This document shows, one piece after another, positions 9,528 through 64,000 of a DNA stretch of 64,000 nucleotides. The translations under genes and the position numbers were made by a program. The notes under the pieces were generated by a model, which saw only the letters and a program-made list of their open reading frames with translations, searched no databases and had not been told where the DNA came from. Each line of letters starts with the position of its first letter. The first letter of the stretch is position 1. The DNA is from Halothiobacillaceae bacterium (lineage in GTDB: Bacteria; Pseudomonadota; Gammaproteobacteria; Halothiobacillales; Halothiobacillaceae), in contig JAFGUH010000189.1 in NCBI GenBank assembly GCA_016938615.1, positions 1-64,000 on the forward strand, given 5' to 3'.

Positions 9528-11192
9528 GTGGACAAGAAACCCGATAATTCCACGGACGCGCATCATGAGTCCGTTGGCGTACCGGCGCCGGAAGGTCCAG
9601 CCAATCTGATCAACACCGATTACCAGATCGGTCAGGACAACTACCAGGCGAGCCCAATGGGCGTGACGATCGACATTCACGGGGCGGTCTTCGTCTTTTC
9701 CTCCCTAGTGATCCTCGCCTTCGTGATCCTGAGTCTCGCCCTTCCGGAGCAGTCGACCAACTGGTTCGGGGCGGCGAAGGATTGGATCAACAGCCACATG
9801 ACCTGGTTTTTCCTGTTCGCCGCCAACGTGTTCGTGGTGCTCTGCATCGCGCTGATCGTCTCGCCGCTCGGCAAGGTGCGCATCGGCGGGGCGAAGGCCA
9901 AACCGGATTACAGCTACCTCTCGTGGTTCGCGATGCTGTTCGCCGCGGGCATGGGCGTCGGCCTGATGTTCTACGGCGTCTCCGAACCACTCACCCACTA
10001 CGGCACCTCGCTGGGTGGCGTAAGCATGGGTGACAACGGGGTTCGGACCGACTGGGCACCTCTGGGCGCGGCCGAGGGTGACTCGTCGGCCGCGATGAGC
10101 CTCGGCATGGCCGCCACGATCTTCCACTGGGGCCTGCATCCCTGGGCGATCTACGCCATCGTCGCGCTGTCGCTCGCGCTGTTCGCCTACAACAAGGGCC
10201 TGCCGCTGACCGTGCGCTCCATGTTCTACCCGATCCTGGGCGAACGCATCTGGGGCTGGCCTGGGCACTTGATCGACATCCTCGCCGTGTTCGCCACCCT
10301 GTTCGGTCTCGCAACCTCGCTGGGCATCGGCGCACAGCAGGCGGCGGCCGGACTCAACCACCTGTTCGGCATTCCCGGTGGCAACACCACCCTGGTGCTG
10401 TTGATCGCGGCCATCACCAGCGTGGCGGTGATCTCGATCGTCGCCGGCGTCGACAAGGGGGTCAAACGGCTCTCTGAGTTCAACCTGGTGTTGGCCTTCC
10501 TGCTGCTGATGTTCGTGATCTTCGTCGGCCCGACGCTCCTGATCGTGACCGGGTTCTTCAAGAATCTCGGCTCCTACGTGACCGAACTGCCCTTCCTGGC
10601 CAACCCCTTCGGCCGGGAGGACGCGAACTTCAGCCAGGGCTGGACCACGTTCTACTGGGCCTGGTGGATCAGCTGGTCGCCGTTCGTCGGCATGTTCATC
10701 GCCCGGGTGTCGCGGGGTCGATCGGTACGCGAATTCCTCACGGCCGTGTTGCTGGTGCCGTCAATCGTCTCGGTGCTCTGGATGACCGCGTTCGGCACCA
10801 CCGCGATCCATCAGCTGCAGAACGGCTTCGAGGGCGCACAGAACGCCGATCTCGCGGTCAAGTTGTTCGAGGTTCTGGGGCAGTTGCCGCTCGCCGATAT
10901 CACCTCGTTCATCGGCATCGTGCTGGTCATCGTGTTCTTCGTGACCTCCTCGGACTCCGGCTCGCTGGTCATCGACACGATCACCGCCGGCGGCAAGATC
11001 GACGCGCCCAAGCCTCAGCGTGTCTTCTGGGGTGTCATCGAGGGTGCCATCGCGATTGCGCTCCTGATCGGCGGCGGCCTCGTCGCCCTGCAGTCGGCCG
11101 CCGTGTCGGTCGGACTGCCGTTCACCGTCGTGCTACTGGTGGGCTGCTACGCGATCGTGAAGGGGCTGATGACCGAACCGCGCGCTACCTGA
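9528..11192 (+). CDS. BCCT family betaine/carnitine/choline transporter
   Basis: This 554-residue, 12-helix secondary transporter takes up compatible solutes (betaine, choline, carnitine or ectoine class). The start is GTG at 9528, preceded by GGAGAG. Diagnostic segments are GMGVGLMFYGVSEPL in TM3 and WAWWISWSPFVGMFIARVSRGR around TM8, which contains the tryptophan-box substrate site. The C-terminal tail is short, so osmosensing by a long cytoplasmic tail (as in BetP) is not evident. The upstream Usp gene may be co-transcribed. A terminator lies directly downstream. Confidence 0.95.
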   Translation: MDKKPDNSTDAHHESVGVPAPEGPANLINTDYQIGQDNYQASPMGVTIDIHGAVFVFSSLVILAFVILSLALPEQSTNWFGAAKDWINSHMTWFFLFAANVFVVLCIALIVSPLGKVRIGGAKAKPDYSYLSWFAMLFAAGMGVGLMFYGVSEPLTHYGTSLGGVSMGDNGVRTDWAPLGAAEGDSSAAMSLGMAATIFHWGLHPWAIYAIVALSLALFAYNKGLPLTVRSMFYPILGERIWGWPGHLIDILAVFATLFGLATSLGIGAQQAAAGLNHLFGIPGGNTTLVLLIAAITSVAVISIVAGVDKGVKRLSEFNLVLAFLLLMFVIFVGPTLLIVTGFFKNLGSYVTELPFLANPFGREDANFSQGWTTFYWAWWISWSPFVGMFIARVSRGRSVREFLTAVLLVPSIVSVLWMTAFGTTAIHQLQNGFEGAQNADLAVKLFEVLGQLPLADITSFIGIVLVIVFFVTSSDSGSLVIDTITAGGKIDAPKPQRVFWGVIEGAIAIALLIGGGLVALQSAAVSVGLPFTVVLLVGCYAIVKGLMTEPRAT

Positions 11193-11277: not shown

Positions 11278-11997
11278 TCAGGTCCAGAGTTCGCCGATCG
11301 GAGTGTCGGGGGAATAATGCCGGGCAATCTGGGCTTGAAGCAGCTCGGCGGTCGCCAGCGCATCGAGCTTGGCGTGATGGGCGGAGTACGTCGGCAGACC
11401 GTACCGGGCCCGACAATCGCCCAGCCGGATCGAGGCGGCCGGTGATCCGAAAAACCGGCGAAGCCGTGACCACCCACCTCGCCGAACGAACTGGGCCTCG
11501 AGTTGCATGGTGTCGATCACCGGAAACAGGCAACGCTCGCCCCGACGGGCAAGCACTGCGGCATCGAGGAATGGACGTTCGATGCCGCGGTAGTGCACCA
11601 CGACGATCTTGCCGGCCAGTTGGGACAACAACTCGTCGAGAATGGCCTCAAGATCCGGTGCTCGAGCCACTTCGGCGTGGGTGATACGGTGAAAGCGGAT
11701 CGAGCGTTCATCCAGCGGGCGCGGCGGGCGGACGACCCAATAGCGCCCCGCGGCCGGGCGAATCCGGCCGAGGGTGAACGGCACCAGTCCGACCGAGACG
11801 ATTGCATGGTCGTGCACGTCCAACCCACTGGTCTCGAAATCGAGCGCGACCATCTCGACATCCGCGATCGGCGTGGCCGGGTTGGGCAGCCCCGCGGCGT
11901 AAAACGCGCGCAGTGCCGGGTCCCGGCATCGGTCAGCCCGGTCGGCGACATATCGCGGCCAGGTCACGCTCGGATCGGTGGTGTCTCGCCGTGCCAT
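11278..11997 (-). CDS. DEDDh 3'-5' exonuclease (DnaQ/PolC-like), module copy 1
   Basis: The 239-residue protein has an ExoI motif LDFETSGLD (D53, E55). A modified ExoII region VVHYRGIERPFLD (H135, D145) lacks the usual HNxxFD wording but keeps an aspartate. The ExoIII motif is HHAKLDALATAEL (H207/H208, D212). It resembles the epsilon proofreading subunit but is a free-standing enzyme, with about 48 residues ahead of the catalytic domain. Its ATG shares one base with the stop of the upstream cNMP/CBS/nucleotidyltransferase gene (TAATG), so the two are coupled. A homologous protein of exactly the same length is encoded at 61545-62264 beside a homologous partner. Confidence 0.9.
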   Translation of the reverse strand: MARRDTTDPSVTWPRYVADRADRCRDPALRAFYAAGLPNPATPIADVEMVALDFETSGLDVHDHAIVSVGLVPFTLGRIRPAAGRYWVVRPPRPLDERSIRFHRITHAEVARAPDLEAILDELLSQLAGKIVVVHYRGIERPFLDAAVLARRGERCLFPVIDTMQLEAQFVRRGGWSRLRRFFGSPAASIRLGDCRARYGLPTYSAHHAKLDALATAELLQAQIARHYSPDTPIGELWT

Positions 11998-13895
11998 TAG
12001 CGGCCTGGGGTCGGGTAGCGGAAACGCAGGAATTTCTGTGCGTTGCTGAGCACCTGGAACGCGTCCTTGAGATTGTGTCGTTCGGCGTCGGAAACGTTTT
12101 CCGGCTCGATATTGTTGTCGGGGCTGTGATGGTGCTTTAAGTCATGTGCCTGGTGGCGAATGCGCACCATCGACAGGAATTCGAGTGCGTAGCGCAACTT
12201 GTCAGCCTGTCCTGCCGGGAGCGTGTCCGCCCGGGTGATGTCGTCGAGACGATCAAACGAGTTCTGAGACCGCGAGCCGACCGCCAGCGCATGCACGCGA
12301 ATGACATCGACCAACGGCGCCGTGCCGCGGCGCTTGATGTTGATCGAGTTGTTGTGCTTCCCGTCTTCCTCCATGACGAAGGTCCGGAAGAAGCCGAGCG
12401 GCGGTGTCCGGTTGAGGGCGTTGCGTGCCATCGCGGCGAGAAATCGGGGGCTCCGGCTCGCGCGCTCGGCGACCAGGTCCTGCAGCTGCTCCACGAACCG
12501 TTCCTCGCCGTGCACCGGGTCGAGGTCGAAGAAGATCGAGCTGTGTAGCAGCCGCTCGGGATCCGGTTCGCTGATCCATTCCTCGAAATAGCCCCGCCAG
12601 ACCGACAGCGGTTGCCGCCACTTGTCGTTGGTCGCCATGATCCCGCCGTCACAGTACGGGTAACCGCAGGCGTCGAGCCCGTCGCTCACACGGCTGGCCA
12701 AGGCCTTGAACCACGCGTCGTGGCGCTCGGGATCAAAGGTGTCATCGAGGATCAGTGCGTTGTCCTGGTCGGTGGAGATGGTCTGGTCGTTGCGGGCCAT
12801 CGAACCATTGACCATGAAACAGTACGGAACGGGCGGCGGGCCCAGTTCCTGTTCGGCCAGTTCGATCAGACGGCGGATCAGACTGCGGCCGATGCTCGAC
12901 ATCGCCTCCCCGACCATTTGCGAGGTAGCGCCCTCGTCAACCAGCCTGAGAAACGCGGCGCGCACGTCCGGCATCAATCGGACCAGTCCCTTGACACTCC
13001 CTTGGCTGAATATGTTGCTAACGAGGTAGAGACTGCTGTGTGTCTCGTAGCGGACGATATCGGACAGGTGCACGACCCCGATCGGTCGCCGCCGTTGCAG
13101 GACCGGGAGATGGTGAACATTGTTGCGCAGCATGGCGAGCATCGCCTCGTACACCGATTCGTCCGCCTGGATCGCGATGACTTGCGCATGCTTGATCTGG
13201 TCGAGTCGCGTGTCGCCCGAGCCGCCGGCGGCAAGCACCCGCACCCGGAAATCGTGGTCGGTCAGTATCCCGGCAACCCGCCAGTGGCTACCATCTTCAC
13301 CGACGAAGGCGCGATCGTCCTCAATGGACGAGCGTTCGGTCAGCAAGATCGCCGAGACCTGCTGCTCGGTCATCAATCGGGCGGCATCGCGCACCAGGCC
13401 AGTCTGCTCGATCAGTACCGGCGAACGACTCACCAGCCGACGGACCCGCGTGACCATCATGTCGTTCTCGCGTTCGTTCTGCTCGACGGTGGCCTTCAGG
13501 CGGGGACCGGACAGCTCGACGAAATCCGCGAAGTGGTCGTCCTCCTGGCAGAGCCGGTCGAACACCTCGGCCGGGATGAGGTAGAGCAAGGTGTCCTCGA
13601 TGGCCTTCGCCGGAAACCGGACCCGCTGCTTGTGCAGCAGCCCGGCCTGGCCGAAGATGTCGCCCTCGCTCAAGCGGTTGTAGAGTTCGCCGTTGTGGCG
13701 ATAGACCTCCACTGCCCCGCTGCGGACATAACGCAGCGAATCGATCGGCTCGCCATACGCTTGAATTGACGTACCGTCGCGGTAGTAGGCCACCTCCACG
13801 GAGGCGGCAATCCGATCGAGCCAAGCCGATTCGAGCCGGTCGAACGGCGGGAACCGCCGCAAGTGTTCCCGAATTTCCTGCACTTCCGCTTCCAT
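11997..13895 (-). CDS. cNMP-binding / CBS / DUF294 nucleotidyltransferase-like signalling protein, copy 1
   Basis: The 632-residue soluble protein has four parts: a cyclic-nucleotide-binding (Crp-type) domain at about 10-130; two CBS domains at about 155-290 that could bind adenosine nucleotides; a nucleotidyltransferase-like domain at about 350-465; and a helical DUF294 C-terminal domain at 490-632. The catalytic pattern of the polymerase-beta superfamily is present as GS (364-365), then TDQD with D376 and D378, then IFFDLD with D457. The architecture resembles GlnD/MNT-type transferases placed under two ligand sensors. The substrate is unknown. The downstream exonuclease gene overlaps it by one base. 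The start ATG at 13895 is the first codon of a purine-rich N-terminal segment. Confidence 0.9.
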   Translation of the reverse strand: MEAEVQEIREHLRRFPPFDRLESAWLDRIAASVEVAYYRDGTSIQAYGEPIDSLRYVRSGAVEVYRHNGELYNRLSEGDIFGQAGLLHKQRVRFPAKAIEDTLLYLIPAEVFDRLCQEDDHFADFVELSGPRLKATVEQNERENDMMVTRVRRLVSRSPVLIEQTGLVRDAARLMTEQQVSAILLTERSSIEDDRAFVGEDGSHWRVAGILTDHDFRVRVLAAGGSGDTRLDQIKHAQVIAIQADESVYEAMLAMLRNNVHHLPVLQRRRPIGVVHLSDIVRYETHSSLYLVSNIFSQGSVKGLVRLMPDVRAAFLRLVDEGATSQMVGEAMSSIGRSLIRRLIELAEQELGPPPVPYCFMVNGSMARNDQTISTDQDNALILDDTFDPERHDAWFKALASRVSDGLDACGYPYCDGGIMATNDKWRQPLSVWRGYFEEWISEPDPERLLHSSIFFDLDPVHGEERFVEQLQDLVAERASRSPRFLAAMARNALNRTPPLGFFRTFVMEEDGKHNNSINIKRRGTAPLVDVIRVHALAVGSRSQNSFDRLDDITRADTLPAGQADKLRYALEFLSMVRIRHQAHDLKHHHSPDNNIEPENVSDAERHNLKDAFQVLSNAQKFLRFRYPTPGR

Positions 13896-14042: not shown

Positions 14043-15347
14043 TTAGAAGTAGTAGCCGACGTTGATGTTGAAGACCGTGTTGGACTCGCCATCGCCGGTC
14101 ATGCTGCCTCCCACGAACGGCTGGTTGCGACCGTTGATGATATCGAAGTAGGTGTACAACCCACCCGCCGATACGGCCATGCCGGTCACGTTCATGTAGG
14201 TGTCCTCGAAATCGGCGTTCTTGTCGTAGATCAGGCTGTAATCGTTGTAGAACGTCAACGAGGAGACCGGGCCCCATTCGACCGGCAGCGTGTAGGCGAC
14301 ATTGGCCGTCAGTGCCTTGGCGGAAAGCGGGCCGGTGAACAACCCGGCGTAATAGCCGTAGTTGATGAAATCGGCATTGGAATCGTCGAAGTCGTATTCC
14401 CAGTCCGTGTATTGCAACTGGAGGTTCCAGCGATCGTAGTCCGCGACCAGGTGCGCGGCGGCCGCGTAATAGTCGCCGTCACCGCTCGGACTGGCGCCGT
14501 CAAGCTGACCGTACTTGACCGAGGCGCCGGGCTTGAGTGTCAGCTTGTCCCCGACCTTGTAGTCGTACTCGGCTCTCGCCGCGACCGTGTTTACGGTTTG
14601 GGAGTTCCGTGCGCCGTCTGCGGTGTCGATATCGTCCGTATCGTCGTAGTTATAGCCGACGACATTCGCCGAATACGACTCGAGGCTGGAGCCGCCGCGC
14701 TCGTCGTTCTTCAGAAGCGCGAGATCGAAGCGCCAGTCGCCAGGCGTGTAGGTGGTGCCGACGCCGAAATCGTAGTTGTCCTCGAGCCCGACGTAGTACA
14801 GGGACGAGAAGTAGAAGTTGTGCGAGTTGTACGGCAGGACGCCGAACGGCACCTGGAAGATACCCGCCCTCGCCATCAGATCGTCGGTGAATTCGTAACC
14901 GACCCAGGCGTGGTGGATCACAGACATGTATTCGTACCAGCGCCATTCCGCCGAGAGGATCACGCCGCCGATCTCTCCGTCGAAGTTAAGCCGGAAGGTG
15001 TCGAATGCCAGGTCGCCGCCCCGGTCCTTGCCGGCATCGTCATTGTCAGCGACGGTATAGTTGAAGCGCACGGCACCACCGACGTTGATGTCCGGCTTGG
15101 CGGCTTCCGCCTTCTTCTCGGCCTTCGCGACCTTCTCCGCCTGTTCGGCCTGCGTCTCCTCGATCTGATCGTTACGAGCGCGCTCCTTCTCGAGCTCGCC
15201 CTGCAGGTTCTCGACCCGCTGCTTGAGCGCCTCGAGTTCCTGCATGATCTGCTCGGCGCTCGAACCATGCTCCGCGGCTATGCCGGACAGGGGCACGGTG
15301 CCGAGCGCCACGCCGATCGAGAACGCCAACAACTGCTTTTTCATCAT
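14043..15347 (-). CDS. Outer-membrane porin-like beta-barrel protein
   Basis: The product is 434 residues. It has a signal peptide (about 1-24, ending SGIAAEH), a coiled coil of Glu/Lys/Gln residues (about 27-85, with a stretch KVAKAEKKAEAAK), then a barrel of alternating aromatic strands ending in VGYYF. The terminal Phe is the usual outer-membrane assembly signal. The coiled coil plus barrel design resembles trimeric DcaP/OprP-like porins. No pore-specific residues can be named. Two tandem ATG codons (15347 and 15344) follow a GAGGG Shine-Dalgarno site, and the second has the better spacing. Confidence 0.82.
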   Translation of the reverse strand: MMKKQLLAFSIGVALGTVPLSGIAAEHGSSAEQIMQELEALKQRVENLQGELEKERARNDQIEETQAEQAEKVAKAEKKAEAAKPDINVGGAVRFNYTVADNDDAGKDRGGDLAFDTFRLNFDGEIGGVILSAEWRWYEYMSVIHHAWVGYEFTDDLMARAGIFQVPFGVLPYNSHNFYFSSLYYVGLEDNYDFGVGTTYTPGDWRFDLALLKNDERGGSSLESYSANVVGYNYDDTDDIDTADGARNSQTVNTVAARAEYDYKVGDKLTLKPGASVKYGQLDGASPSGDGDYYAAAAHLVADYDRWNLQLQYTDWEYDFDDSNADFINYGYYAGLFTGPLSAKALTANVAYTLPVEWGPVSSLTFYNDYSLIYDKNADFEDTYMNVTGMAVSAGGLYTYFDIINGRNQPFVGGSMTGDGESNTVFNINVGYYF

Positions 15348-53866: not shown

Positions 53867-54787
53867 GTGACGCCCGCGATGACAGCGGGCGGGCGCATGC
53901 CGCCCACGATGATCCTGATGACGGGCTCCACCCTGTGGGGGCTGACGTGGATCTGGCTGAAGGACGCGCACGCCCTCGGCATCGGCCCGATCTTGCTCAC
54001 CGTCGTCGCCTATGGCACCCAATGGCTGATCGTGCTTCCATTTGCCTGGCGGGCCTGGCATGACCCACTCCGATCGCCGATCACGCGGCTGAACGGAAAG
54101 TGGCTGGCCCTGCTCGCTTTCGCCTCCGGCGTCTCAGGCGTGGGCTTTACCATGGCCATGGTCTACGGCGACGTGGTGCGAGCTATGATGCTGTTCTTCC
54201 TGATTCCCGCCTGGGGCGTGCTGTTCGGTCGCTTTTTCCTCAAGGAACCACTGAGCCCGCCACGCGTGTTGGCGGTGGCCAGTGCCCTGGTCGGCGCCTT
54301 CCTGATCCTGGGCCCCGATTTCGGCGACGGCCTGCATCCGGCCGACTGGTTTGCGCTGATTGCGGGGTTTTCCCTCGCCGGCGCCAACACCCTGTTCCGC
54401 TTTCTCCACGAGCAACCCCTCCCGATCAAGCTGTCGCTGATGCAGGGCTCGACCGTGGCACTTGGCCTGGCCGCCTGGGCCCTGTCAAGCGAGTTCGGCA
54501 TCCCACCGACGCTCGCGGCCATGGGCAGCAGCGCGCTTTACGGAGCGACCATGCTGCTGGCCGCCGTGCTCGCCACACAGTACGCCGTCGAGCGCCTGCC
54601 CGCCTCGCGCACCGCCATCCTGATGACCCTCGAACTGCTGGTTGCCGTCGCCTCGGCGACCTGGCTGGGCGATCGCATCCACGGTGCCCATGTCTGGACC
54701 GGCGGTGTACTGATACTCACTGCCGCCCTGCTTGAGGCCGGCACGGCTCGACGTCACAGTCCCCCGGTCCGTCCATGCACGGGTTGA
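53867..54787 (+). CDS. EamA/DMT superfamily transporter
   Basis: The 306-residue protein has ten helices arranged as two EamA repeats of five. The first repeat starts near residue 15 (ILMTGSTLWGLTWIWLK) and the second at about residue 155. FLIPAWGVLFGRFFLKEPLSPPR is the conserved end of the first repeat. The substrate is unknown; relatives export amino acids or metabolites. The GTG at 53867 lacks a clear ribosome-binding site; ATGs at 53879, 53897 or 53909 are alternatives. Its stop overlaps the rep gene start by 13 bp. Confidence 0.85.
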   Translation: MTPAMTAGGRMPPTMILMTGSTLWGLTWIWLKDAHALGIGPILLTVVAYGTQWLIVLPFAWRAWHDPLRSPITRLNGKWLALLAFASGVSGVGFTMAMVYGDVVRAMMLFFLIPAWGVLFGRFFLKEPLSPPRVLAVASALVGAFLILGPDFGDGLHPADWFALIAGFSLAGANTLFRFLHEQPLPIKLSLMQGSTVALGLAAWALSSEFGIPPTLAAMGSSALYGATMLLAAVLATQYAVERLPASRTAILMTLELLVAVASATWLGDRIHGAHVWTGGVLILTAALLEAGTARRHSPPVRPCTG

Positions 54788-56805
54788 ACCCTCAACAGCA
54801 GGCGGCGGTGCGCCACGTCGATACCCCGCTACTGGTGCTCGCCGGCGCCGGTTCGGGCAAGACGCGCGTGATCGTCGAGAAGATCGTCCACCTGATCGAG
54901 GCCAAGGGCACCCCCGCGAACGGCATCTGGGCGGTGACTTTCACCAACAAGGCCGCCCGGGAAATGGGCGAGCGCATCGCTCAACGCCTGCCCGCCGACC
55001 GCCGCCGGGGGTTGAACATCTCGACCTTCCATACCCTCGGCCTCAAGCTCATCCGCCGCGAGACCGCCGCCTTCGGGCTCCGGCCGGGCTTCACCGTGCT
55101 GGACGCCGAGGACAGCCTCAACCTGATCAAGTCCCTGCTCGCGCAGAACGAGGCCGCCGCCGGCCTGCTCGAACCGAAGGAAGCCCAGCGACAGATCTCG
55201 GCCTGGAAGAACGACCTGCTGACCCCGTCCCGGGCGGCCACGGCTGCCGCCGACGAGGTCGAGGCCGCGATCGCCTCGCTCTACCACGACTACGATCGCC
55301 AATTGACCGCCTGCAACGCGCTCGATTTCGACGATCTGATCAAGCGCCCGGTGGAACTGCTGCGTGACGATAGCGACGCCCGCGAGCGCTGGCAGCGCCG
55401 CGTGCGTTACCTGCTGGTCGACGAGTACCAGGACACCAACACGAGCCAGTACGAACTGGTTCGCCTCCTGGTGGGGCCACTCGCCCGGCTGACGGCCGTC
55501 GGCGACGACCACCAGTCGATCTACGCCTGGCGCGGGGCGCGTCCCGAGAACCTTTCGCACCTGGCGCGGGACTTTCCCCGGTTGGCGACCATCAAGCTCG
55601 AGCAGAACTACCGCTCGGTGAACACCGTGCTGACCGCCGCCAACCAGTTGATCGCCAACGACCCGACCACCCAGCCCAAGCGCCTCTGGAGCGCGGTCGG
55701 ACCGGGTGAGGCACACCGCGTGCTGGTCTGCGACACGGCCGACGACGAGGCCGAGCGCATCGCCACCGACATCCTGCACCGCCATTTCAAGGACCAGACC
55801 CCTTACCGACACGTCGCGATCCTGTTTCGCGGCAACCATCAGGCGCGCCTGCTCGAACAGCAGTTGCGAAAGCTCTCCATCCCCTACCAGCTGACCGGTG
55901 GGCAGTCGTTCTTCGAGCGCGCCGAGGTCAAGGACGCCATGGCCTATCTGCGGCTGATGTCGAACCCCTCGGATGACGCCGCGTTACTGCGGATCATCAA
56001 CACGCCGCGGCGCGGCATCGGGCCGACCACGCTCGAACGACTTGGCCTGATCGCGCGCGAACGACGTACGCACCTCGCGGAGGCGGCACGCTCGATCAGC
56101 GCCGAACAGCGACTCGATCCACGAGTACACCACCAGCTGCTCCAGTTTCTCGACTGGCTCGATGCCGCCCGGCTTGACATAAACGCACGCCCGGCGGCCG
56201 AGGCGATGCGTACCCTGCTCGAGGAAATCGACTACGCCGCTTATCTGCGCGATCAGGAAAACAGCTCGAAGGCGGCCGAGAGGCGCTGGACCAACCTCCA
56301 GGACTGGCTCGAGTGGACCGAACGCATCGGCATCGACAACGACAGTGGCGAGGCGCTCTCGCTGACCGAACTGGTGCAGAAAATGAGCCTTCTCGGTATC
56401 CTCGAGCAGAAAACACGCGACCAGGACGACGACGCCGTACGCCTTTTGACCCTTCACGCAGCCAAGGGCCTGGAGTTCCCGCATGTCTACCTCTCCGGGA
56501 TGGAGGAAGACCTCCTGCCCCACCAGGACTGCCAGGAGGACGACCGCCTCGCCGAGGAACGGCGCCTGTGTTTCGTCGGCATCACGCGCGCCCAGAAGAG
56601 CCTGACCTTCACCCTGACCAAGCGGCGTCGGCGCTATGGGCAGTGGCGCGACGTTCGGCCGAGCCGGTTTCTTGAGGAGATAGACGCCGACCTGTTGCGC
56701 TGGGAAGGCATCGGCGTCCAAAAAAGTGAGGAAGAACATCGCGCGACTGCCGCCGAGGCGATGAGCACCATCCGCGCCATGCTCGACAATGCCGGCAAAC
56801 CGTAA
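54775..56805 (+). CDS. rep: ATP-dependent DNA helicase Rep
   Basis: The 676-residue SF1A 3'-5' helicase matches Rep in length (E. coli 673). Helicase motifs are in order: Q-motif LNPQQQAAV (4-12), Walker A LAGAGSGKT (22-30), TFTNKAAREMGER, motif II VDEYQDTN (about 213-220), motif III GDDHQSIYAWRGA, motif IV EQNYRSVNTVL, motif V VRLLTLHAAKGLEFPHVYLSGMEEDLLP and motif VI EERRLCFVGITRAQ. It supports replication-fork progress past bound proteins. The start overlaps the DMT transporter gene by 13 bp. Confidence 0.96.
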   Translation: MHGLNPQQQAAVRHVDTPLLVLAGAGSGKTRVIVEKIVHLIEAKGTPANGIWAVTFTNKAAREMGERIAQRLPADRRRGLNISTFHTLGLKLIRRETAAFGLRPGFTVLDAEDSLNLIKSLLAQNEAAAGLLEPKEAQRQISAWKNDLLTPSRAATAAADEVEAAIASLYHDYDRQLTACNALDFDDLIKRPVELLRDDSDARERWQRRVRYLLVDEYQDTNTSQYELVRLLVGPLARLTAVGDDHQSIYAWRGARPENLSHLARDFPRLATIKLEQNYRSVNTVLTAANQLIANDPTTQPKRLWSAVGPGEAHRVLVCDTADDEAERIATDILHRHFKDQTPYRHVAILFRGNHQARLLEQQLRKLSIPYQLTGGQSFFERAEVKDAMAYLRLMSNPSDDAALLRIINTPRRGIGPTTLERLGLIARERRTHLAEAARSISAEQRLDPRVHHQLLQFLDWLDAARLDINARPAAEAMRTLLEEIDYAAYLRDQENSSKAAERRWTNLQDWLEWTERIGIDNDSGEALSLTELVQKMSLLGILEQKTRDQDDDAVRLLTLHAAKGLEFPHVYLSGMEEDLLPHQDCQEDDRLAEERRLCFVGITRAQKSLTFTLTKRRRRYGQWRDVRPSRFLEEIDADLLRWEGIGVQKSEEEHRATAAEAMSTIRAMLDNAGKP

Positions 56806-56950
56806 ACGGCGGATAAATAAGTGAAGCTGATGGCCGATAACGCCCTCGCGCCTGCGTCACGAATACTTTGCTAAGCTCGCACACGCCCCACCACAGCCCG
56901 CCGGGCGCCGACCCGCGGGTTTCGCCAGCGACCAGGACCCACAGACAACC

Positions 56951-58264
56951 ATGTCCCGATCCGACGACCTCGCCCCGAAGACGCGCCCTTGGCTGTTTCG
57001 CCTGATCCTGCCGCTGCTCATCCTCGGGGTCGCGGCGGGCGTTTTCCTGGCCCTGAAGGCGAGTCGTCCCGAACCGCCGCGTGCCACCCCCCAAGAACGT
57101 GCCTGGCTGATCGAGACCCAGGTGGTCGAGCCTGCCCGGCACCATCCGGTGTTGACCCTCTATGGCGAGGTCGCCAACCCCGACCGCCTCACGGTGCGGG
57201 CGCCGATCTCGGCGCGGGTGGCGTCGGTGCCGATGGAAAATGGCAGTCCGGTCGAACAGGGAACCCTGCTCGTCGCGCTCGATCCACAAGACATCCGGCC
57301 CGTCGTCGATCGCGCCGAGGCCAACCTCGCCGACCTCGAGGCCCAAATTCGTCAGGCGCGCGCCAGCCAAGAGACCGACCAGGCCGCCCTGGCCCTCGAG
57401 CGCGAGATCGTCGCCAACGCCCAGACCGCGCTGCAACGCAACCGAGACCTGAACAAGCGCAACCTCGCCTCGCAGGCGGACGTCGATGCCGCCCGCGACA
57501 CCCTGAGCCAGGCTCGCCTGTCGCTGAACACCCGCCGCGAACGACTGGCGACGTTCGACGCCCGCCTTGCCGGCCTCCAGGCTCGTCGAGACGCGGCTGG
57601 AGCCGACCTTGCCGCCGCCAGGCGCGATGCGGAGCGCGCCCGGGTCACCGCGCCGGCCGACGGTCTGGTCGGCTCGGTCTCGGTCACGTCAGGTGCCCTG
57701 GTCAATCCCAACGCCGCGCTGCTGGATTTCTTCCCCTGGGCCGGATTCGAGTTGCGCGCCCTGATCCCGAGCCGCGAGGTCGAGACCATCGCGGCCGCCC
57801 TCGCTGCAGGCAGCCCCCCGGGCGCCCGCGTGCTCGAGTCCGGCGTCGACCTGCGCCTGGCACGCCTCGCTGGCGAGGCGAGTGGAGAAGGCGTCACCGG
57901 GTTGTTCGAGTTCACCCGCACCGAGCGCTCGCTCCGCGTCGGCCAGGTGCTGAGCGTCGAACTGGCACTGCCCGCAGTCGATTCAGCGATCGTGATCCCG
58001 CGCAGTGCCCTGTACGGGAACGATCATATCTATCGCGTGCGCGACGGGCGGCTGGAACGCGTGACGGTCGAGCGCCTCGGCGCGGCCGGCAGCGACGCCG
58101 GGGGGCCGGGTCGACTGCTGGTACGCGCCCCAAGCCTCGCCGCGGGCGATCGCGTCGCGATTACCCAGTTGCCCAATGCCGTCGACGGCCTCAAGGTCCG
58201 CTGGCAGGGACAACCGCCTGCGACCGACGGCACGAATGAGACGGGCGAGGCGGCCGGCGAATGA
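56951..58264 (+). CDS. RND periplasmic adaptor (membrane fusion protein), second system
   Basis: The 437-residue protein has one N-terminal anchor helix (about 15-38, LFRLILPLLILGVAAGVFLAL) instead of a cleaved signal. The first lipoyl half is RAPISARVASVPMENGSPVEQG. A long coiled-coil hairpin (about 110-220, rich in Gln/Ala/Arg/Asp) and a second lipoyl half VTAPADGLVGSVSVTSGALVNP follow, then beta-barrel and membrane-proximal domains. ATGA overlap joins it to the RND pump gene. It is clearly different from the adaptor at 3286-4395, so the window has two independent pumps. Confidence 0.9.
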   Translation: MSRSDDLAPKTRPWLFRLILPLLILGVAAGVFLALKASRPEPPRATPQERAWLIETQVVEPARHHPVLTLYGEVANPDRLTVRAPISARVASVPMENGSPVEQGTLLVALDPQDIRPVVDRAEANLADLEAQIRQARASQETDQAALALEREIVANAQTALQRNRDLNKRNLASQADVDAARDTLSQARLSLNTRRERLATFDARLAGLQARRDAAGADLAAARRDAERARVTAPADGLVGSVSVTSGALVNPNAALLDFFPWAGFELRALIPSREVETIAAALAAGSPPGARVLESGVDLRLARLAGEASGEGVTGLFEFTRTERSLRVGQVLSVELALPAVDSAIVIPRSALYGNDHIYRVRDGRLERVTVERLGAAGSDAGGPGRLLVRAPSLAAGDRVAITQLPNAVDGLKVRWQGQPPATDGTNETGEAAGE

Positions 58265-61200
58265 CGGACAGGAACGCGTCGGGCCTACTGGAGCGCTTCG
58301 CCCGTCACCGGGTCGCACCGCACCTGGTGATGCTGCTGATGATCCTCGGCGGGCTGTTCGCGATCTCGCGGATGAACATCCAGTTCTTCCCCAATTTCGC
58401 CGTCGACGTGGTCAGCGTTTCGGTGGTCTGGACAGGTGCCTCGGCGGAAGATATCGAGCGCGGCATCACCGAACCGCTCGAAGAGCGCCTGCGCTCCGTG
58501 CCCAATCTCGACAGCATGACCTCCACCTCGGCGCAGGGCATTTCCACGATCACGATCGAGTTCCTCCAGGGGACCGACCCGGTGCTCGCGCTCAACGACG
58601 TGCGCGAGCAGGTGGATACCTTTCGCAATTTCCCGGCCGACGCCGAAACCCCAAGGATCAGCCGCGTGCCGAAGTTCGACCCGGTGGGTCGGTTACTGAT
58701 CTACGGCGACGTCGACCGCGACGCCCTGCGCCATTGGGTGGACCGCTTCGAACGAGAACTGATCGATCGCGGCATCGACCGAATCGACGTCAATGGCATA
58801 CCCGAACAGCGGATCGCCATCGAGGTGCCGTCGTCGACACTGGTGCAACTGGGCCAATCGCTGCCGCAGATCTCCGAGACCGTCAATGCGCTCTCCCGCG
58901 ACGTGCCCGCGGGGGAATTCGGCAGCGCGGACGGGGGGCGAGAACTGCGGGCGGTCGAACAACGCCGGCGACCGATCGAGTTCGCCGACCTGTCGGTGAT
59001 CGCCCGGCCCGAGGCACGGCTCGATCTGGGCATGATCGCCCGGGTCGTCCAGGAACCGCGTCGCGACTCGCTGCTCATGCGCCACAACGGCGTACCGGCC
59101 GCCGAACTCGTGCTCCAGCGAGCCCAGCACGGTGACAGCCTCGAGGCGGCGAAGGCCTTGCAGACCTGGATCGACGACACCCGCCCCACCCTGCCGCCCC
59201 AGTTGAACATCGAGGCCTACGACCAGTCCTGGCAGCTGATCCGGGACCGGATCAACCTGCTGGTGACGAACGGCGCAGGTGGCCTGATCCTGGTACTGGT
59301 ACTGCTCTACCTATTCCTGCCAGGGCGCGTCGCCTTCTGGGTGGCTGCCGGGATCCCGGCGGCCTTCCTGGCCGCGCTGGCGATCCTCTGGCTGATCGGC
59401 GGGTCGATCAACATGATCTCGCTGTTCGCCCTGATCATGGCCCTGGGCGTGATCGTCGATGACGCGATCGTGGTGGGCGAGGACGCAGACGCGCACTTTC
59501 GCGGCGGAGAGCCGGCACTGACGGCCTCCCAGGGGGCGGCCCGACGCATGTTCTGGCCCGTGATGGCCTCGTCCCTGACCACGATCGCCGCCTTCATGCC
59601 CCTGTTGGTGGTCGGCGGCACCATCGGCCAGATCCTGCGCGACATCCCGGTGGTCATGATCTGCGTGATCGGCGCCTCTCTGGTCGAAGCGTTTCTGGTT
59701 CTGCCAGGCCACCTGCGCGGGGCATTCGGCGGGCAGGACAACGCGCGTCCCGACCCGGGGCGCCCCGGGGGTTTCGCCCGGTTCCGCGCCGGCTTCGACC
59801 GCGGGTTCGAACGATTTCGCGACAGCCACTTCCGTCGCGCGGTGCGCTTTGCCATCGGCCACCGGACCGTGACGCTGGCGACCGCGGTGGCAACCGTCAT
59901 CCTCGCGGTCGGGTTACTGGCCGGCGGGCGGCTCGGATTCACTTTCTTTCCCACGCCCGAATCGCAGATCCTCTACGCCAACGCCACCTTTGTCGCCGGC
60001 ACCGATCGCGAGCGGATGGAGGCCTTCATGGCGGAGCTCGAAGCGAGTCTCGCGCGCACCGAGAAGGAGTTGGGCGAGCCACTTGTCCAGACAGCGATCA
60101 GCCGCCTTGGCAGCACCCTCGGACCGCAGAACAGCACGCAGGGGGACCAGCTCGGCTCGATGCTGGTCGAGCTGGCCCCGCCGGACGACCGTGAAACCCG
60201 CAACGCCGAGTTCATCCGCACCTGGAAGCAGAACACCGCGGTGCCGCCGGGCATGGAGAACTTCTCGATCAGCTCGCGCCAGGGCGGGCCGCCGGGGGCC
60301 GATCTCACCGTGCGCCTCAAGGGCGGGGAAACCGGCGACCTCAAGGCGGCCGCCGTCTCGCTTGCCGAAACGCTCAAGAGCCTGCCGGGCGTGGTCGACG
60401 TCACCGACGACCTACCCTACGGACGCCAGCAGATCACCTTTTCGGTCAACGCCCAGGGCCGCGCGCTCGGCCTGACCACCGCCGAGGTCGGCAACCAGTT
60501 GCGGGCGGCCTACGATGGAGCGCTCAGCCAGATCTTCCAGTCCGGTCCCGACGAGGTCGAGGTCCGCGTGCTGCTGCCGCGCGAGGAACGCCGCCAGATC
60601 GGCTCACTCGACGACATCAGCCTGCGCACCGACGACGGGGGCTTCGTGCCGCTACGGCAGGTCGTCGACCTGGGATCGCAGCGCGGCTTCGAGGCCATCC
60701 GCCACGCCGAGGGCAAGCGAGCGGTCGAGGTCTCCGCCGAGATCAATCGCAGTCTGACCAGCGCCGAGACCCTCAAGGCCGCCCTCCAAGAAGACACCCT
60801 GCCCTCGCTCGCCAGCCGCTTCGGCCTCGACTACAGCTTCGAGGGTCGCCAGGCCGACCAGCGCGACACCATGGCCGACATGAAATTCGGGCTCTACCTC
60901 GGCCTGGCGTTGATGTACGTGGTGCTGGTGTGGGTGTTCTCGGCCTGGACCATGCCGTTGATCGTGATGACCGTGATTCCGTTCGGCCTGGTCGGGGCCA
61001 TCGCCGGCCACTGGCTCATGAACATCGATCTCACCATCCTATCGCTGTTCGGTCTGTTCGGCCTTTCGGGGATCGTGGTCAACAACGCGATCATCCTCGT
61101 CGCCTTCTACCGCGATCAACTCGCCGCGGGGCTATCGGTCGACGAGGCGCTCGAGCAGGCTGCCGTGCAACGCCTGCGCGCGGTGATGCTCACCTCGCTG

Positions 61201-61395
61201 ACCACCATCGGCGGACTGACACCGCTGCTGTTCGAGACATCCCTGCAGGCGCAATTCCTGATCCCGATGGCCACCTCGATCGCCTTCGGCCTGGGCTATT
61301 CCACCCTGCTCGTACTGTTCGTCATCCCCGCCCTGCTCTCCCTGCGCGAGAGCATCAGCCAACGGGTGGTGCCAATGCAGTCCGCATCTGCCTAG
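58261..61395 (+). CDS. RND efflux pump, inner-membrane permease, second system
   Basis: This is a 1044-residue, 12-helix exporter. TM1 is near residues 20-35, the loop begins VVWTGASAEDIERGITEPLEERL, and the helix-4 proton relay LGVIVDDAIVVGEDADAHF keeps both Asp residues. Helix 10-12 blocks (LFGLSGIVVNNAIILVAFYRD and VMLTSLTTIGGLTPLLFETS) are intact. The relay differs from the first pump (DD here, DN there), supporting distinct substrate or coupling. No outer-membrane channel gene is adjacent. Confidence 0.93.
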   Translation: MTDRNASGLLERFARHRVAPHLVMLLMILGGLFAISRMNIQFFPNFAVDVVSVSVVWTGASAEDIERGITEPLEERLRSVPNLDSMTSTSAQGISTITIEFLQGTDPVLALNDVREQVDTFRNFPADAETPRISRVPKFDPVGRLLIYGDVDRDALRHWVDRFERELIDRGIDRIDVNGIPEQRIAIEVPSSTLVQLGQSLPQISETVNALSRDVPAGEFGSADGGRELRAVEQRRRPIEFADLSVIARPEARLDLGMIARVVQEPRRDSLLMRHNGVPAAELVLQRAQHGDSLEAAKALQTWIDDTRPTLPPQLNIEAYDQSWQLIRDRINLLVTNGAGGLILVLVLLYLFLPGRVAFWVAAGIPAAFLAALAILWLIGGSINMISLFALIMALGVIVDDAIVVGEDADAHFRGGEPALTASQGAARRMFWPVMASSLTTIAAFMPLLVVGGTIGQILRDIPVVMICVIGASLVEAFLVLPGHLRGAFGGQDNARPDPGRPGGFARFRAGFDRGFERFRDSHFRRAVRFAIGHRTVTLATAVATVILAVGLLAGGRLGFTFFPTPESQILYANATFVAGTDRERMEAFMAELEASLARTEKELGEPLVQTAISRLGSTLGPQNSTQGDQLGSMLVELAPPDDRETRNAEFIRTWKQNTAVPPGMENFSISSRQGGPPGADLTVRLKGGETGDLKAAAVSLAETLKSLPGVVDVTDDLPYGRQQITFSVNAQGRALGLTTAEVGNQLRAAYDGALSQIFQSGPDEVEVRVLLPREERRQIGSLDDISLRTDDGGFVPLRQVVDLGSQRGFEAIRHAEGKRAVEVSAEINRSLTSAETLKAALQEDTLPSLASRFGLDYSFEGRQADQRDTMADMKFGLYLGLALMYVVLVWVFSAWTMPLIVMTVIPFGLVGAIAGHWLMNIDLTILSLFGLFGLSGIVVNNAIILVAFYRDQLAAGLSVDEALEQAAVQRLRAVMLTSLTTIGGLTPLLFETSLQAQFLIPMATSIAFGLGYSTLLVLFVIPALLSLRESISQRVVPMQSASA

Positions 61396-61544: not shown

Positions 61545-62264
61545 TCAAAGCACCGACAACAGGTCCCGCACCGCCAACCGCCCGTTGGGCGATACCCGAT
61601 CCTGGCACAGGGCCGAGTGCAGTTCGGCGGTGGCCAGCGCATCGATCAGGGCGTGGTGGGCGCGGTAGCGCGGCAGGTGGTAGCGCCCGCGCAGGGCATC
61701 CAGGCGCAACTCACCGGGGCCGTGGTGCAGGTGGCGGCGCTCGAAGCCCTGTCGTGCCAGCAACAGGGTGTCGATCACCGGGAGGGCCAGCCCCGCGCCG
61801 AAATGCCGCCGGCAGGCGGCGTTGAGAAAGGCGATCTCGAAGCGCGCGTTGTGCGCGACCAGCACGCGGCCGGTCAGCGCCTCGAGCACCTGTTCCAGCG
61901 CCACGCGCTCGGGGAGCCCCGCCGCGGCGACATCGTCGGTGATGCCGTGGATCACCGCGCTTTGCTCGGGGATGCCGATCCGCGGGTTGATCAACTCGTG
62001 GTGCGTGGTGGCCAAGTCGATCGTTGCGCCGTGCATCCCCACCCAGCCCACACTCAGCAGCCGGTCGTGACGCGGATCGAGCCCGGTGGTCTCGAAATCG
62101 AGCACCAGGTACTCAGCTTCGCGCCAGTCGGCATCGATGTCGGCCACGGGCGTGTCGAGAAAGTGGAGCAGTGCCGAATCGGGCGTGGCCCGGCGGCGGT
62201 GATAGCGCCGGCGCCACGCGAGCCAGCTGGCATGCGGGAACCAGGACAGGCGCAGGTGGGCCAT
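61545..62264 (-). CDS. DEDDh 3'-5' exonuclease (DnaQ/PolC-like), module copy 2
   Basis: This is a 239-residue protein, exactly as long as the exonuclease at 11278. ExoI is VLDFETTGLD (D56, E58) and ExoII is VAHNARFEIAFLN, with Glu143 where Asp is classical. ExoIII is HHALIDALATAEL (H203/H204, D208), almost identical to copy 1. The N-terminus is basic (WRRRYHRRRA). The ATG at 62264 is one base beyond the stop of the nucleotidyltransferase gene (TGAGATG). A much longer open frame to 62585 runs into that gene and is not used. Confidence 0.9.
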   Translation of the reverse strand: MAHLRLSWFPHASWLAWRRRYHRRRATPDSALLHFLDTPVADIDADWREAEYLVLDFETTGLDPRHDRLLSVGWVGMHGATIDLATTHHELINPRIGIPEQSAVIHGITDDVAAAGLPERVALEQVLEALTGRVLVAHNARFEIAFLNAACRRHFGAGLALPVIDTLLLARQGFERRHLHHGPGELRLDALRGRYHLPRYRAHHALIDALATAELHSALCQDRVSPNGRLAVRDLLSVL

Positions 62265-62265
62265 C

Positions 62266-64000
62266 TCAGCGGGTGCCGCTGACGTCGAAGTGGGCGCGCA
62301 GCCAGCGCTGGTGGTCATCGACCACCCGGAAGGCATCGCGCAGGTGATCGCGCTCCAGGCCCGAGAGCCGCTCCGGATCGAGCCGGTTGTCGAGTGGCTC
62401 GCCCCGCCGGACCTGGGCGGCCTGGTGGCGGGCGCGCAGCACGTAGAACAGCCGCCAGGCATCGGCCAGCCCGGCCGCGGCCGGCGCCGAGAGGTCACCG
62501 GCCGCGGACGCGGCCTGCAGCCGACGCACGGTGTGTAACTCCGCCAGCCCCAGGCTGACCGCGTGCAGGCGGGCGAGATCGGCAATCGGCATCAAGCCGT
62601 AGCGCTTGAGATCGAGCCGATCGTCGTGTTGCTCGTCGTCCACCACCACAAGCCGGCGGAAAAAGCCCAGCGGCATGCGGATGGCCAGCGCGTTGTCGGC
62701 CAGGCGACGCTGGAAGATGGTATTCGATACCGCCAGCGGGCGCACCGTGTCCCAGAGGGCATCGAGCAGCGAGTCGCGCCCGGCGACCACGCGCATGTCG
62801 AAGAAGTTGGTCGTCAGCATGACCGAGTGCGGCTCGGGCTGCTCGATCCAGTCGCGGAAGGTGCGAACCCAGCCGGCCACCGATTGGCGCCAGTCCGGGG
62901 TGGTCGCCATGGTCCCGCCCGGGCACGGCTCCAGGCCGGCCGCGGCTAGGCCCTCGGTTACGAAACGCGCGAAGCGCTCGAACCACTCGCCGTGCGACGC
63001 GGGGTCGAAGGCCTCATCGAGGATCAGGGCGTTGTCCTGGTCGGTAAACGCGGTCTGCTCGCGTCGGCCCTGGCTGCCCAGCGCCGCCCAGGCCCAGGCG
63101 ACCGGGGCCGGGCCGAGCGCCTGCTCGGCCAGTTCGGTCAGCCGACGGGTCATGGCGTCGGTGACCGTTACCATCGCCTCGCCCAGCGGCTCGGCGTCCG
63201 CGCCGATCGCGACCAGTTGCGCCTCGAGATCCGGCAGGCGCGACCCGACCCGTGCGATCGCCTCAAGGTCCGGGGCGGCCATGGCATCGCGCACCAGATG
63301 AATCGAATGGCTGCCCTGATGGCGCAACAGGTCGGAAGTCGACAGGATGCCCACCAGCGCCCCGTCCTCGGCGACCACCGGCAGGTGGTGGACGTTGTGC
63401 CGCGAGAACAGGAGCGAGGCCTCGAAGGCCGAACTCGTCGGGGGCACCGTGATCAGGGCCTCGGTCATGATCGAGCGCAACGGCGAGTCGACGGGAACGC
63501 CTGTGGCGATGACACGACGACGCAGGTCGCGATCGGTGACCAGCCCCAGCAATCGCCCGTCCTCGAGCAGCAACAGCGCGGAGACCTGCGCCTCGGTCAT
63601 GATCCTGGCTCCCTCGCCGATGGACGTGTCCGGCGAGGCGGTCACCGGCGCACGTCGCAGCAACGAGTCGACCGAGGCGCTGATCAGCGCCGCGGAGCGG
63701 CTACCTTGACCAGCCTGGCCAAGCTCCTTCAGCGCGCGTTCGAGACGCTCGCGCCGGCTGCGCTCGAAGCGCCAGGCAAACACCGGATGGTCCTCGAGCA
63801 GCTCTTCGAACGCCGGTAGCGGCAACTGGTAGAGCAGACTGTCCTCGACCACGGCCACCGAAGGTGTCTCGGCGCTGTCCTTCGCCAGGCTCTCGGGCTC
63901 GGCGGCATGGGGGGCGTCGAGGTAGAGATCGGTCTCGGCGAGTTTCTCGCGAAGGGATCCATCGGCTTCGCGCACAGTCAGCGCCCCGCTGCGCACGATC
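62266..64000 (-). CDS. cNMP-binding / CBS / DUF294 nucleotidyltransferase-like protein, copy 2 (5' end outside the window)
   Basis: About 577 C-terminal residues are visible; the start and most of the cNMP-binding domain lie beyond 64000. The visible order is the end of the cNMP domain (SLLYQLPLPAFEELLEDHP), two CBS domains (ending ILSTSDLLRHQ), the nucleotidyltransferase motif ALGSQGRREQTAFTDQDNALIL, NFFDMRVV as third acidic element, and a DUF294 C-terminal helical domain. It parallels the protein at 11997-13895 throughout. It is coupled to the exonuclease gene downstream. Confidence 0.9.
   Translation of the reverse strand, partial: IVRSGALTVREADGSLREKLAETDLYLDAPHAAEPESLAKDSAETPSVAVVEDSLLYQLPLPAFEELLEDHPVFAWRFERSRRERLERALKELGQAGQGSRSAALISASVDSLLRRAPVTASPDTSIGEGARIMTEAQVSALLLLEDGRLLGLVTDRDLRRRVIATGVPVDSPLRSIMTEALITVPPTSSAFEASLLFSRHNVHHLPVVAEDGALVGILSTSDLLRHQGSHSIHLVRDAMAAPDLEAIARVGSRLPDLEAQLVAIGADAEPLGEAMVTVTDAMTRRLTELAEQALGPAPVAWAWAALGSQGRREQTAFTDQDNALILDEAFDPASHGEWFERFARFVTEGLAAAGLEPCPGGTMATTPDWRQSVAGWVRTFRDWIEQPEPHSVMLTTNFFDMRVVAGRDSLLDALWDTVRPLAVSNTIFQRRLADNALAIRMPLGFFRRLVVVDDEQHDDRLDLKRYGLMPIADLARLHAVSLGLAELHTVRRLQAASAAGDLSAPAAAGLADAWRLFYVLRARHQAAQVRRGEPLDNRLDPERLSGLERDHLRDAFRVVDDHQRWLRAHFDVSGTR

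Follow-up and report, generated by a model that had tools for sequence, protein, structure and literature searches.

The nearest studied case to the gene pairs described here is PP_0354/PP_0353 of Pseudomonas putida, likened to them by domain makeup and gene order: the two genes form an operon in which a CBS-domain protein is followed by an exonuclease of the RNase_T family, as in the NT2-EXO2 pair of this work (PMC9927547, PMC5715377, PMC8402216). The same reports describe cAMP-binding and nucleotidyltransferase domains in the P. fluorescens homologue, place the homologues beside actP-yjcH in P. aeruginosa, and mention that some strains have the pair linked to an organic-acid symporter of the SSS family (PMC9927547, PMC5715377, PMC8402216). 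In P. putida, loss of PP_0353 (the exonuclease homologue) or of actP-I each delays growth on pyruvate, and growth on succinate, acetate or pyruvate is unaffected by deletion of PP_0354, the nucleotidyltransferase homologue (PMC9927547). The nucleotidyltransferase homologue of P. fluorescens is predicted to work by nucleotidylation and is described as having a negligible phenotype, and the deletion of pflu5625 as having a negligible effect on acetate (PMC5715377). With regard to domain families, DUF294_C, the C-terminal domains of GlnD and GlnE, and HEPN have been assigned to one clan (PMC3710099). In the open-licence papers searched, no mention of a BCCT-linked clade of such pairs was found, nor any paper on BCCT transporters with DUF294 or on cNMP/CBS/nucleotidyltransferase proteins with a symporter.

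The genome considered here is that of a Guyparkeria (Halothiobacillaceae), a salt-loving sulfur bacterium, and the window, that is, the whole stretch of 64,000 bases that was analysed, contains two modules in which a nucleotidyltransferase gene (NT) precedes an exonuclease gene (EXO). Copy 1 is a BCCT-type module and copy 2 an SSS-symporter-type module; they are ancient paralogues, each from a clade tied to its own transporter class. An earlier, sequence-only reading of this DNA had proposed two diverged modules with specialised roles, an idea that was right in outline and can now be tied to two classes of transporter.

Two modules and a third paralogue in one genome

Copy 2 lies on the minus strand at the end of the window. 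EXO2 (61545..62264), a DnaQ-like 3'-5' exonuclease of 239 residues with an ATG start, is recognised by its RNase_T Pfam match, its motifs and its predicted fold. NT2 (62266..64000 in the window) is truncated by the window edge, the entire gene occupying 62266-64161 of a 66,322-base contig and encoding 631 residues, in which Pfam identifies a CBS pair followed by DUF294 and DUF294_C. The DUF294 nucleotidyltransferase domain (62830..63240, minus strand) carries an intact G-S...R..EQ...T-D-Q-D-N motif, DUF294_C (62287..62718, minus strand) is a helical domain of the HEPN/KNTase_C type, and the N-terminal cNMP-like region is not recognised by Pfam. An RND adaptor (56951-58264) and an RND pump (58261-61395), both on the plus strand, are convergent with copy 2.

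Copy 1 consists of NT1 (11997..13895, minus strand, 632 residues), with the Pfam order cNMP, CBS, DUF294 and DUF294_C, and EXO1 (11278..11997, minus strand, 239 residues), which has an RNase_T Pfam match and scores above the NF006602 cut-off. It is convergent with a gene for a BCCT-family transporter (9528..11192, plus strand), a linkage that recurs across Gammaproteobacteria, and a gene for a porin-like outer-membrane protein (14043..15347, minus strand) lies upstream; Arsukibacterium, Zhongshania and other bacteria likewise have a porin homologue upstream of their BCCT-NT1-EXO1 genes. The recurrence of the NT-then-EXO order (13895-11278 and about 64161-61545, both on the minus strand), noticed in the sequence-only reading, stands, and so do the coupled starts: the NT1 stop and the EXO1 ATG overlap by 1 nt (TAATG), and a single base separates NT2 from EXO2 (TGAGATG).

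The host genome encodes three DUF294 proteins, and in all of them DUF294 and DUF294_C score far above the Pfam cut-offs. The third, NT3, on contig C231, is a paralogue without an exonuclease that directly precedes a VC_2705-type symporter gene; at L030, a locus of a close relative, the gene for a DUF4212 protein stands between the two. At the NT3 loci (L005:2470-4392 and L030:4228-8428, both plus strand), DUF4212 is followed by the only SSF-family symporter found in the genome. The cNMP domain reaches 57 bits in NT1 and 24 bits, just below the cut-off, in NT3, and has no Pfam match in NT2; in the SSS group of NT proteins the cNMP phosphate-binding cassette is not conserved. Support for different sensors in the two modules goes no further than this, that a cNMP domain is recognisable in copy 1 and not in copy 2.

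With respect to the exonucleases, ExoI D-x-E and ExoIII H-x4-D occur in 100% of the EXO sequences (in EXO2, D56-x-E58 and H203-x4-D208). The classical DnaQ-type residue at ExoII is Asp. Both EXO1 and EXO2 lack this Asp of the DEDDh exonucleases and have Glu instead (Glu143 in EXO2), as do 39/39 sequences of the copy 1 (BCCT) clade; in the SSS-type group the position is 77% Glu and 20% Asp. As judged from these alignments, Glu at ExoII is a family trait and not specific to either copy. The two proteins are accordingly termed DnaQ-like and not strictly DEDDh, since they have the fold and the other motifs but not the ExoII Asp. The contrast previously drawn between Asp145 of copy 1 and Glu143 of copy 2 was a misalignment and has been dropped: the residue of copy 1 opposite Glu143 is Glu140, and Asp145 pairs with Asn148 of copy 2. 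Likewise, the equal length of the two exonucleases is true of this genome but is a coincidence of the species (EXO1 ranges from 237 to 241 residues in the genus and EXO2 from 236 to 239), and the shared ExoIII string HHA-x-x-DALATAEL, present in both copies, is essentially the family consensus and therefore tells little about the pair.

The two copies have diverged considerably. EXO1 and EXO2 share 36% identity over 197 aligned residues (E=7e-28) and NT1 and NT2 34% over 652 columns (E=5e-103). In the comparison across the genus the two copies are about 33% (EXO) and 37% (NT) identical, whereas orthologues within the genus have a mean identity of 75-85%. Nine further genomes of the genus contain both modules, both intact and in fixed positions, with the neighbourhoods porin-NT1-EXO1-BCCT and epimerase-NT2-EXO2-RND wherever the contig shows them and with the copies about 50 kb apart when they are on one contig, which argues against a recent duplication. 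A tenth genome assigned to the genus (G006, 64% complete) has only a copy 2, on a short contig (L021:303-2929), and it is much more divergent (52% identity for NT, 47% for EXO). No DUF294_C proteins were found in ten genomes of genus g2. Pairwise Nei-Gojobori estimates indicate purifying selection on all five genes (omega about 0.09-0.24), with a somewhat weaker constraint on NT2 and EXO2 (0.22-0.24) than on copy 1 (0.09-0.14), although the copy 1 ratios are rough because dS is high. Decay of either copy, which had been named as an outcome that would count against specialisation, is ruled out in these close relatives, since the genes are intact and omega is well below 1. The copy 2 module is real, old and kept, and the earlier statement that two long-diverged modules have both been retained is borne out.

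Regarding transporters in the genus, each genome in which an SSF-family gene was found has a single one, adjoining NT3, and genomes at least 99% complete have three or four BCCT genes. Several genomes of the genus (G001, G003, G004 and G007) also have another BCCT gene, distinct from that of copy 1, some 11-12 kb away from NT2, probably by chance.

Transporter neighbourhoods and the probable separation of copy 2

The wider comparison covered 51 named loci, retrieved with patterns mainly derived from copy 2, together with 60 regions sampled across the class on the basis of PF10335 and the loci of the genus, with duplicates dropped. It contained 142 NT genes, 95 of which have an adjacent exonuclease gene. 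Two arrangements recur: NT1-EXO1 accompanied by a BCCT transporter and in many cases by a porin, and NT3-(DUF4212)-SSS-NT2-EXO2 on one strand (L050, L097, L102, L113, L114, L115 and L153), where DUF4212 was verified in Guyparkeria and stands elsewhere only for an NT-SSS spacing with room for it.

Trees of 121 NT rows and 82 EXO rows, from quick searches with SH-aLRT as the only support, separate these types. In the NT tree, copy 1 falls in a clade of 40 rows (SH-aLRT 100) with BCCT near in 33, copy 2 in one of 30 rows (SH 99), 22 of them directly after SSS, and NT3 in one of 21 rows (SH 100), 13 of them directly before SSS. When only the Pfam-driven sample is considered, an SSS neighbour is present in 21/22 rows of the copy 2 clade and 14/16 of the NT3 clade, and a BCCT neighbour in 7/9 of the copy 1 clade, with zero crossover. 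The NT2-EXO2 pair of Guyparkeria is thus placed within the SSS-adjacent clade. In the EXO tree the BCCT clade reappears as an identical set of 39 rows (SH 99). The two trees have 49 splits in common out of 79 each (mean 0.14 and maximum 2 after shuffling), with one conflicting pair at SH-aLRT of at least 95, and the branch-length correlation between NT and EXO is 0.93, or 0.90 within either type. This close agreement, obtained with the paired phylogeny that the sequence-only reading had recommended, favours co-inheritance and indicates that there is no exchange of partners from one type to the other, the free swapping that would have spoken against its proposal.

Taken together, these relatives show that modules of the copy 2 kind travel with acetate-type sodium symporters and those of the copy 1 kind with betaine-type transporters. 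The usual neighbours of the copy 2 clade are a VC_2705-type Na+/solute symporter and its DUF4212 small subunit (TIGR03648/TIGR03647). G. hydrothermalis R3 is reported to be unable to assimilate acetate (PMC9032823), so the symporter of the genus may have another substrate. Outside these groups, a genome of another family (G338) has a divergent pair of NT-EXO modules, separated by about 8 kb (L146:3915-14222), with no SSS or BCCT gene detected nearby, and NT-EXO modules of this general kind occur in the Actinobacteria Corynebacterium lubricantis (L054) and Aestuariimicrobium (L073), where neither SSS nor BCCT was detected within the fetched flanks.

In Guyparkeria the VC_2705-type symporter remains beside NT3, and its adjacency to NT2-EXO2 has been lost: the neighbours of the pair are the epimerase and RND genes, and in the complete genome G001 it lies about 595 kb from the symporter. 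Guyparkeria NT2 is sister (SH 99) to the NT2 found in Thioalkalivibrio and its relatives (L050, L113 and L153), which keep the whole NT3-SSS-NT2-EXO2 cluster, and the Guyparkeria symporter groups with the symporters of the same lineages, with an SH-aLRT of only 82. In a Halothiobacillus-like genome (G011), nrdA-epimerase is followed by other genes and then by uvrD-EamA, and NT2, EXO2 and RND are absent there; in Guyparkeria, NT2-EXO2 and the RND operon lie between epimerase and uvrD. This interval is variable in Halothiobacillaceae. It contains GGDEF and HI0933 genes in G011 and NT2, EXO2 and RND in Guyparkeria, as seen when L156:4196-11320 is set against 53867-61395 of the window and L004:8267-11261; in two further genomes the epimerase is followed by PPK2/ABC-3 and alcohol dehydrogenase genes (G012 and G017).

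The simplest account of these observations is that the Guyparkeria lineage inherited NT3-(DUF4212)-SSS-NT2-EXO2 and then split it, so that NT3-DUF4212-SSS would have stayed together at one place and NT2-EXO2 would have moved into the variable spot between epimerase and uvrD. This split and insertion can be inferred with good support, and the evolutionary part of our overall explanation is, as a whole, very probable, although loss in other genera or separate acquisition may have taken place instead. The orphan copy 2 locus would thus be explained as one portion, now displaced, of a recognisable cluster of genes. The RND pump does flank copy 2, as the sequence-only reading had pointed out, but this neighbourhood is specific to Guyparkeria, and the pump as a functional partner is unsupported beyond the genus. 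The RND adaptor and pump were not judged part of the module, and their presence probably gives no hint of what the module does.

Proposed nucleotidylation of sodium-coupled uptake

The catalytic residues of the nucleotidyltransferases (G-S, R and D-Q-D) are essentially invariant in the groups of both copies, and G-S and D-x-D are present in 100% of the BCCT, after-SSS and before-SSS groups. In a sequence search of solved structures with NT2, the best 60 matches were all to proteins containing CBS domains and none was to a transferase, and for this reason folds were compared instead. The NT2 model (577 residues, pLDDT 85) matches CBS proteins and both halves of GlnE (3k7d and 1v4a, 384-389 columns), and it also aligns with the AMPylase DrrA, the GlnE and DrrA matches spanning 350-390 columns. 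The intact motifs, the likeness of the modelled fold to GlnE and DrrA, and the clan of DUF294_C make a sensor-controlled protein nucleotidyltransferase the best reading of NT2, and the odds that its activity is protein nucleotidylation of the GlnE kind, as the model suggests, seem about even.

In the proposed mechanism, the CBS pair of NT2 would sense adenine nucleotides or a related signal, and the enzyme would, as GlnE does, attach AMP or UMP to a target protein. Judged by the linkage to transporter genes, the likeliest target would be the Na+-coupled symporter of the cell or the small subunit of that symporter, whose nucleotidylation would tune uptake to the energy or salt state of the cell. 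The translationally coupled EXO2 would remove the nucleotide or trim a short oligonucleotide and so reverse the mark, since the phosphodiester bond in such a tag could be open to hydrolysis by an enzyme of the DnaQ kind. Copy 1 would act likewise on the BCCT osmolyte/betaine transporter. To the overall explanation, an SSS-type module that controls Na+-coupled uptake by nucleotidylation together with an exonuclease partner, we assign a probability of roughly 50%. The specialised roles proposed earlier are made more likely, in the sense of different targets, by the BCCT and SSS contexts of the two clades. If the explanation is correct, a widespread and uncharacterised gene pair acquires a specific job, the post-translational control of Na+-coupled transport, and two module subfamilies are matched to two transporter classes.

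The role of the exonuclease as eraser of the mark is more doubtful. If an unerased mark is harmful and an absent writer harmless, loss of PP_0353 would have a phenotype and loss of PP_0354 none, so the contrast seen in P. putida fits the eraser model, and it fits other models too. That the closest homologues of the exonucleases by predicted fold act on DNA or RNA counts against the explanation as a whole, and so do the null phenotype of PP_0354, the negligible effect of pflu5625 and the distance of NT2-EXO2 from the symporter in Guyparkeria. A broader proposal, in which BCCT and VC_2705-type SSS transporters would each be under their own GlnE-like writer and DnaQ-like eraser as a general reversible switch, and the NT pair flanking the symporter would correspond to split halves of GlnE, is improbable.

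Among the alternatives, the one that survives best, although it is still tentative, places the action of the module on RNA: the exonuclease would trim or degrade mRNAs for transporters and central carbon metabolism, or tRNA ends, and the nucleotidyltransferase would add 3' nucleotides to RNA or control the nuclease. The predicted fold of EXO2 (pLDDT 92.6) matches PolC/DnaQ and RNase T, and Pol-beta-type transferases that act on RNA exist. Degradation of mRNA by PP_0353 is also a speculation of the P. putida authors (PMC9927547). However, the best fold matches of the transferase and helical domains of NT2 are the protein-modifying enzymes GlnE and DrrA, the module is tightly linked to a transporter gene, and Pfam found no RNA-binding domain in its proteins.

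It is unlikely that the nucleotidyltransferase and the exonuclease are merely co-regulated and have unrelated jobs. About a third of the sampled NT genes are without an adjacent exonuclease gene, and the P. putida mutants of PP_0353 and PP_0354 differ in phenotype, but within the BCCT and SSS clades the coupled starts and the closely matching trees speak for two genes that function as a pair. Somewhat less likely still is a new local role of the relocated copy 2 with the sugar-nucleotide epimerase and the RND pump, for which one could invoke the conservation of epimerase-NT2-EXO2-RND in the genus and the somewhat weaker constraint on NT2 and EXO2; the catalytic motifs are the same as in the SSS clade, the other clade members checked have no RND or epimerase neighbours, and what follows the epimerase differs among genomes of the family, so that the neighbourhood alone means little. 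Lastly, a recent tandem or segmental duplication within the host genome, which the identical gene order some 50 kb apart might suggest, is ruled out by the trees, in which each copy has nearer relatives in other families than in its counterpart.

Likeness to known systems

Compared with PP_0354/PP_0353, the Guyparkeria modules differ in their surroundings, copy 2 being without symporter adjacency and copy 1 belonging to a BCCT-linked clade. EXO1 is a member of the NF006602 (PRK09146) subfamily of 3'-5' exonucleases, with a score of 336 bits against a curated cut-off of 266, while EXO2, whose match spans most of the protein but reaches only 164 bits, belongs to a sister group instead. NT1, NT2 and NT3 all have the domains and the catalytic residues of the DUF294/DUF294_C signalling nucleotidyltransferases (COG2905-like). 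The GS and D-x-D motif is common to NT2 and GlnE, the glutamine synthetase adenylyltransferase, and the modelled fold of NT2 aligns to both halves of that enzyme; GlnE has two transferase domains per chain and NT2 a single DUF294 domain, and NT2, unlike GlnE, has CBS sensors and a separate exonuclease partner.
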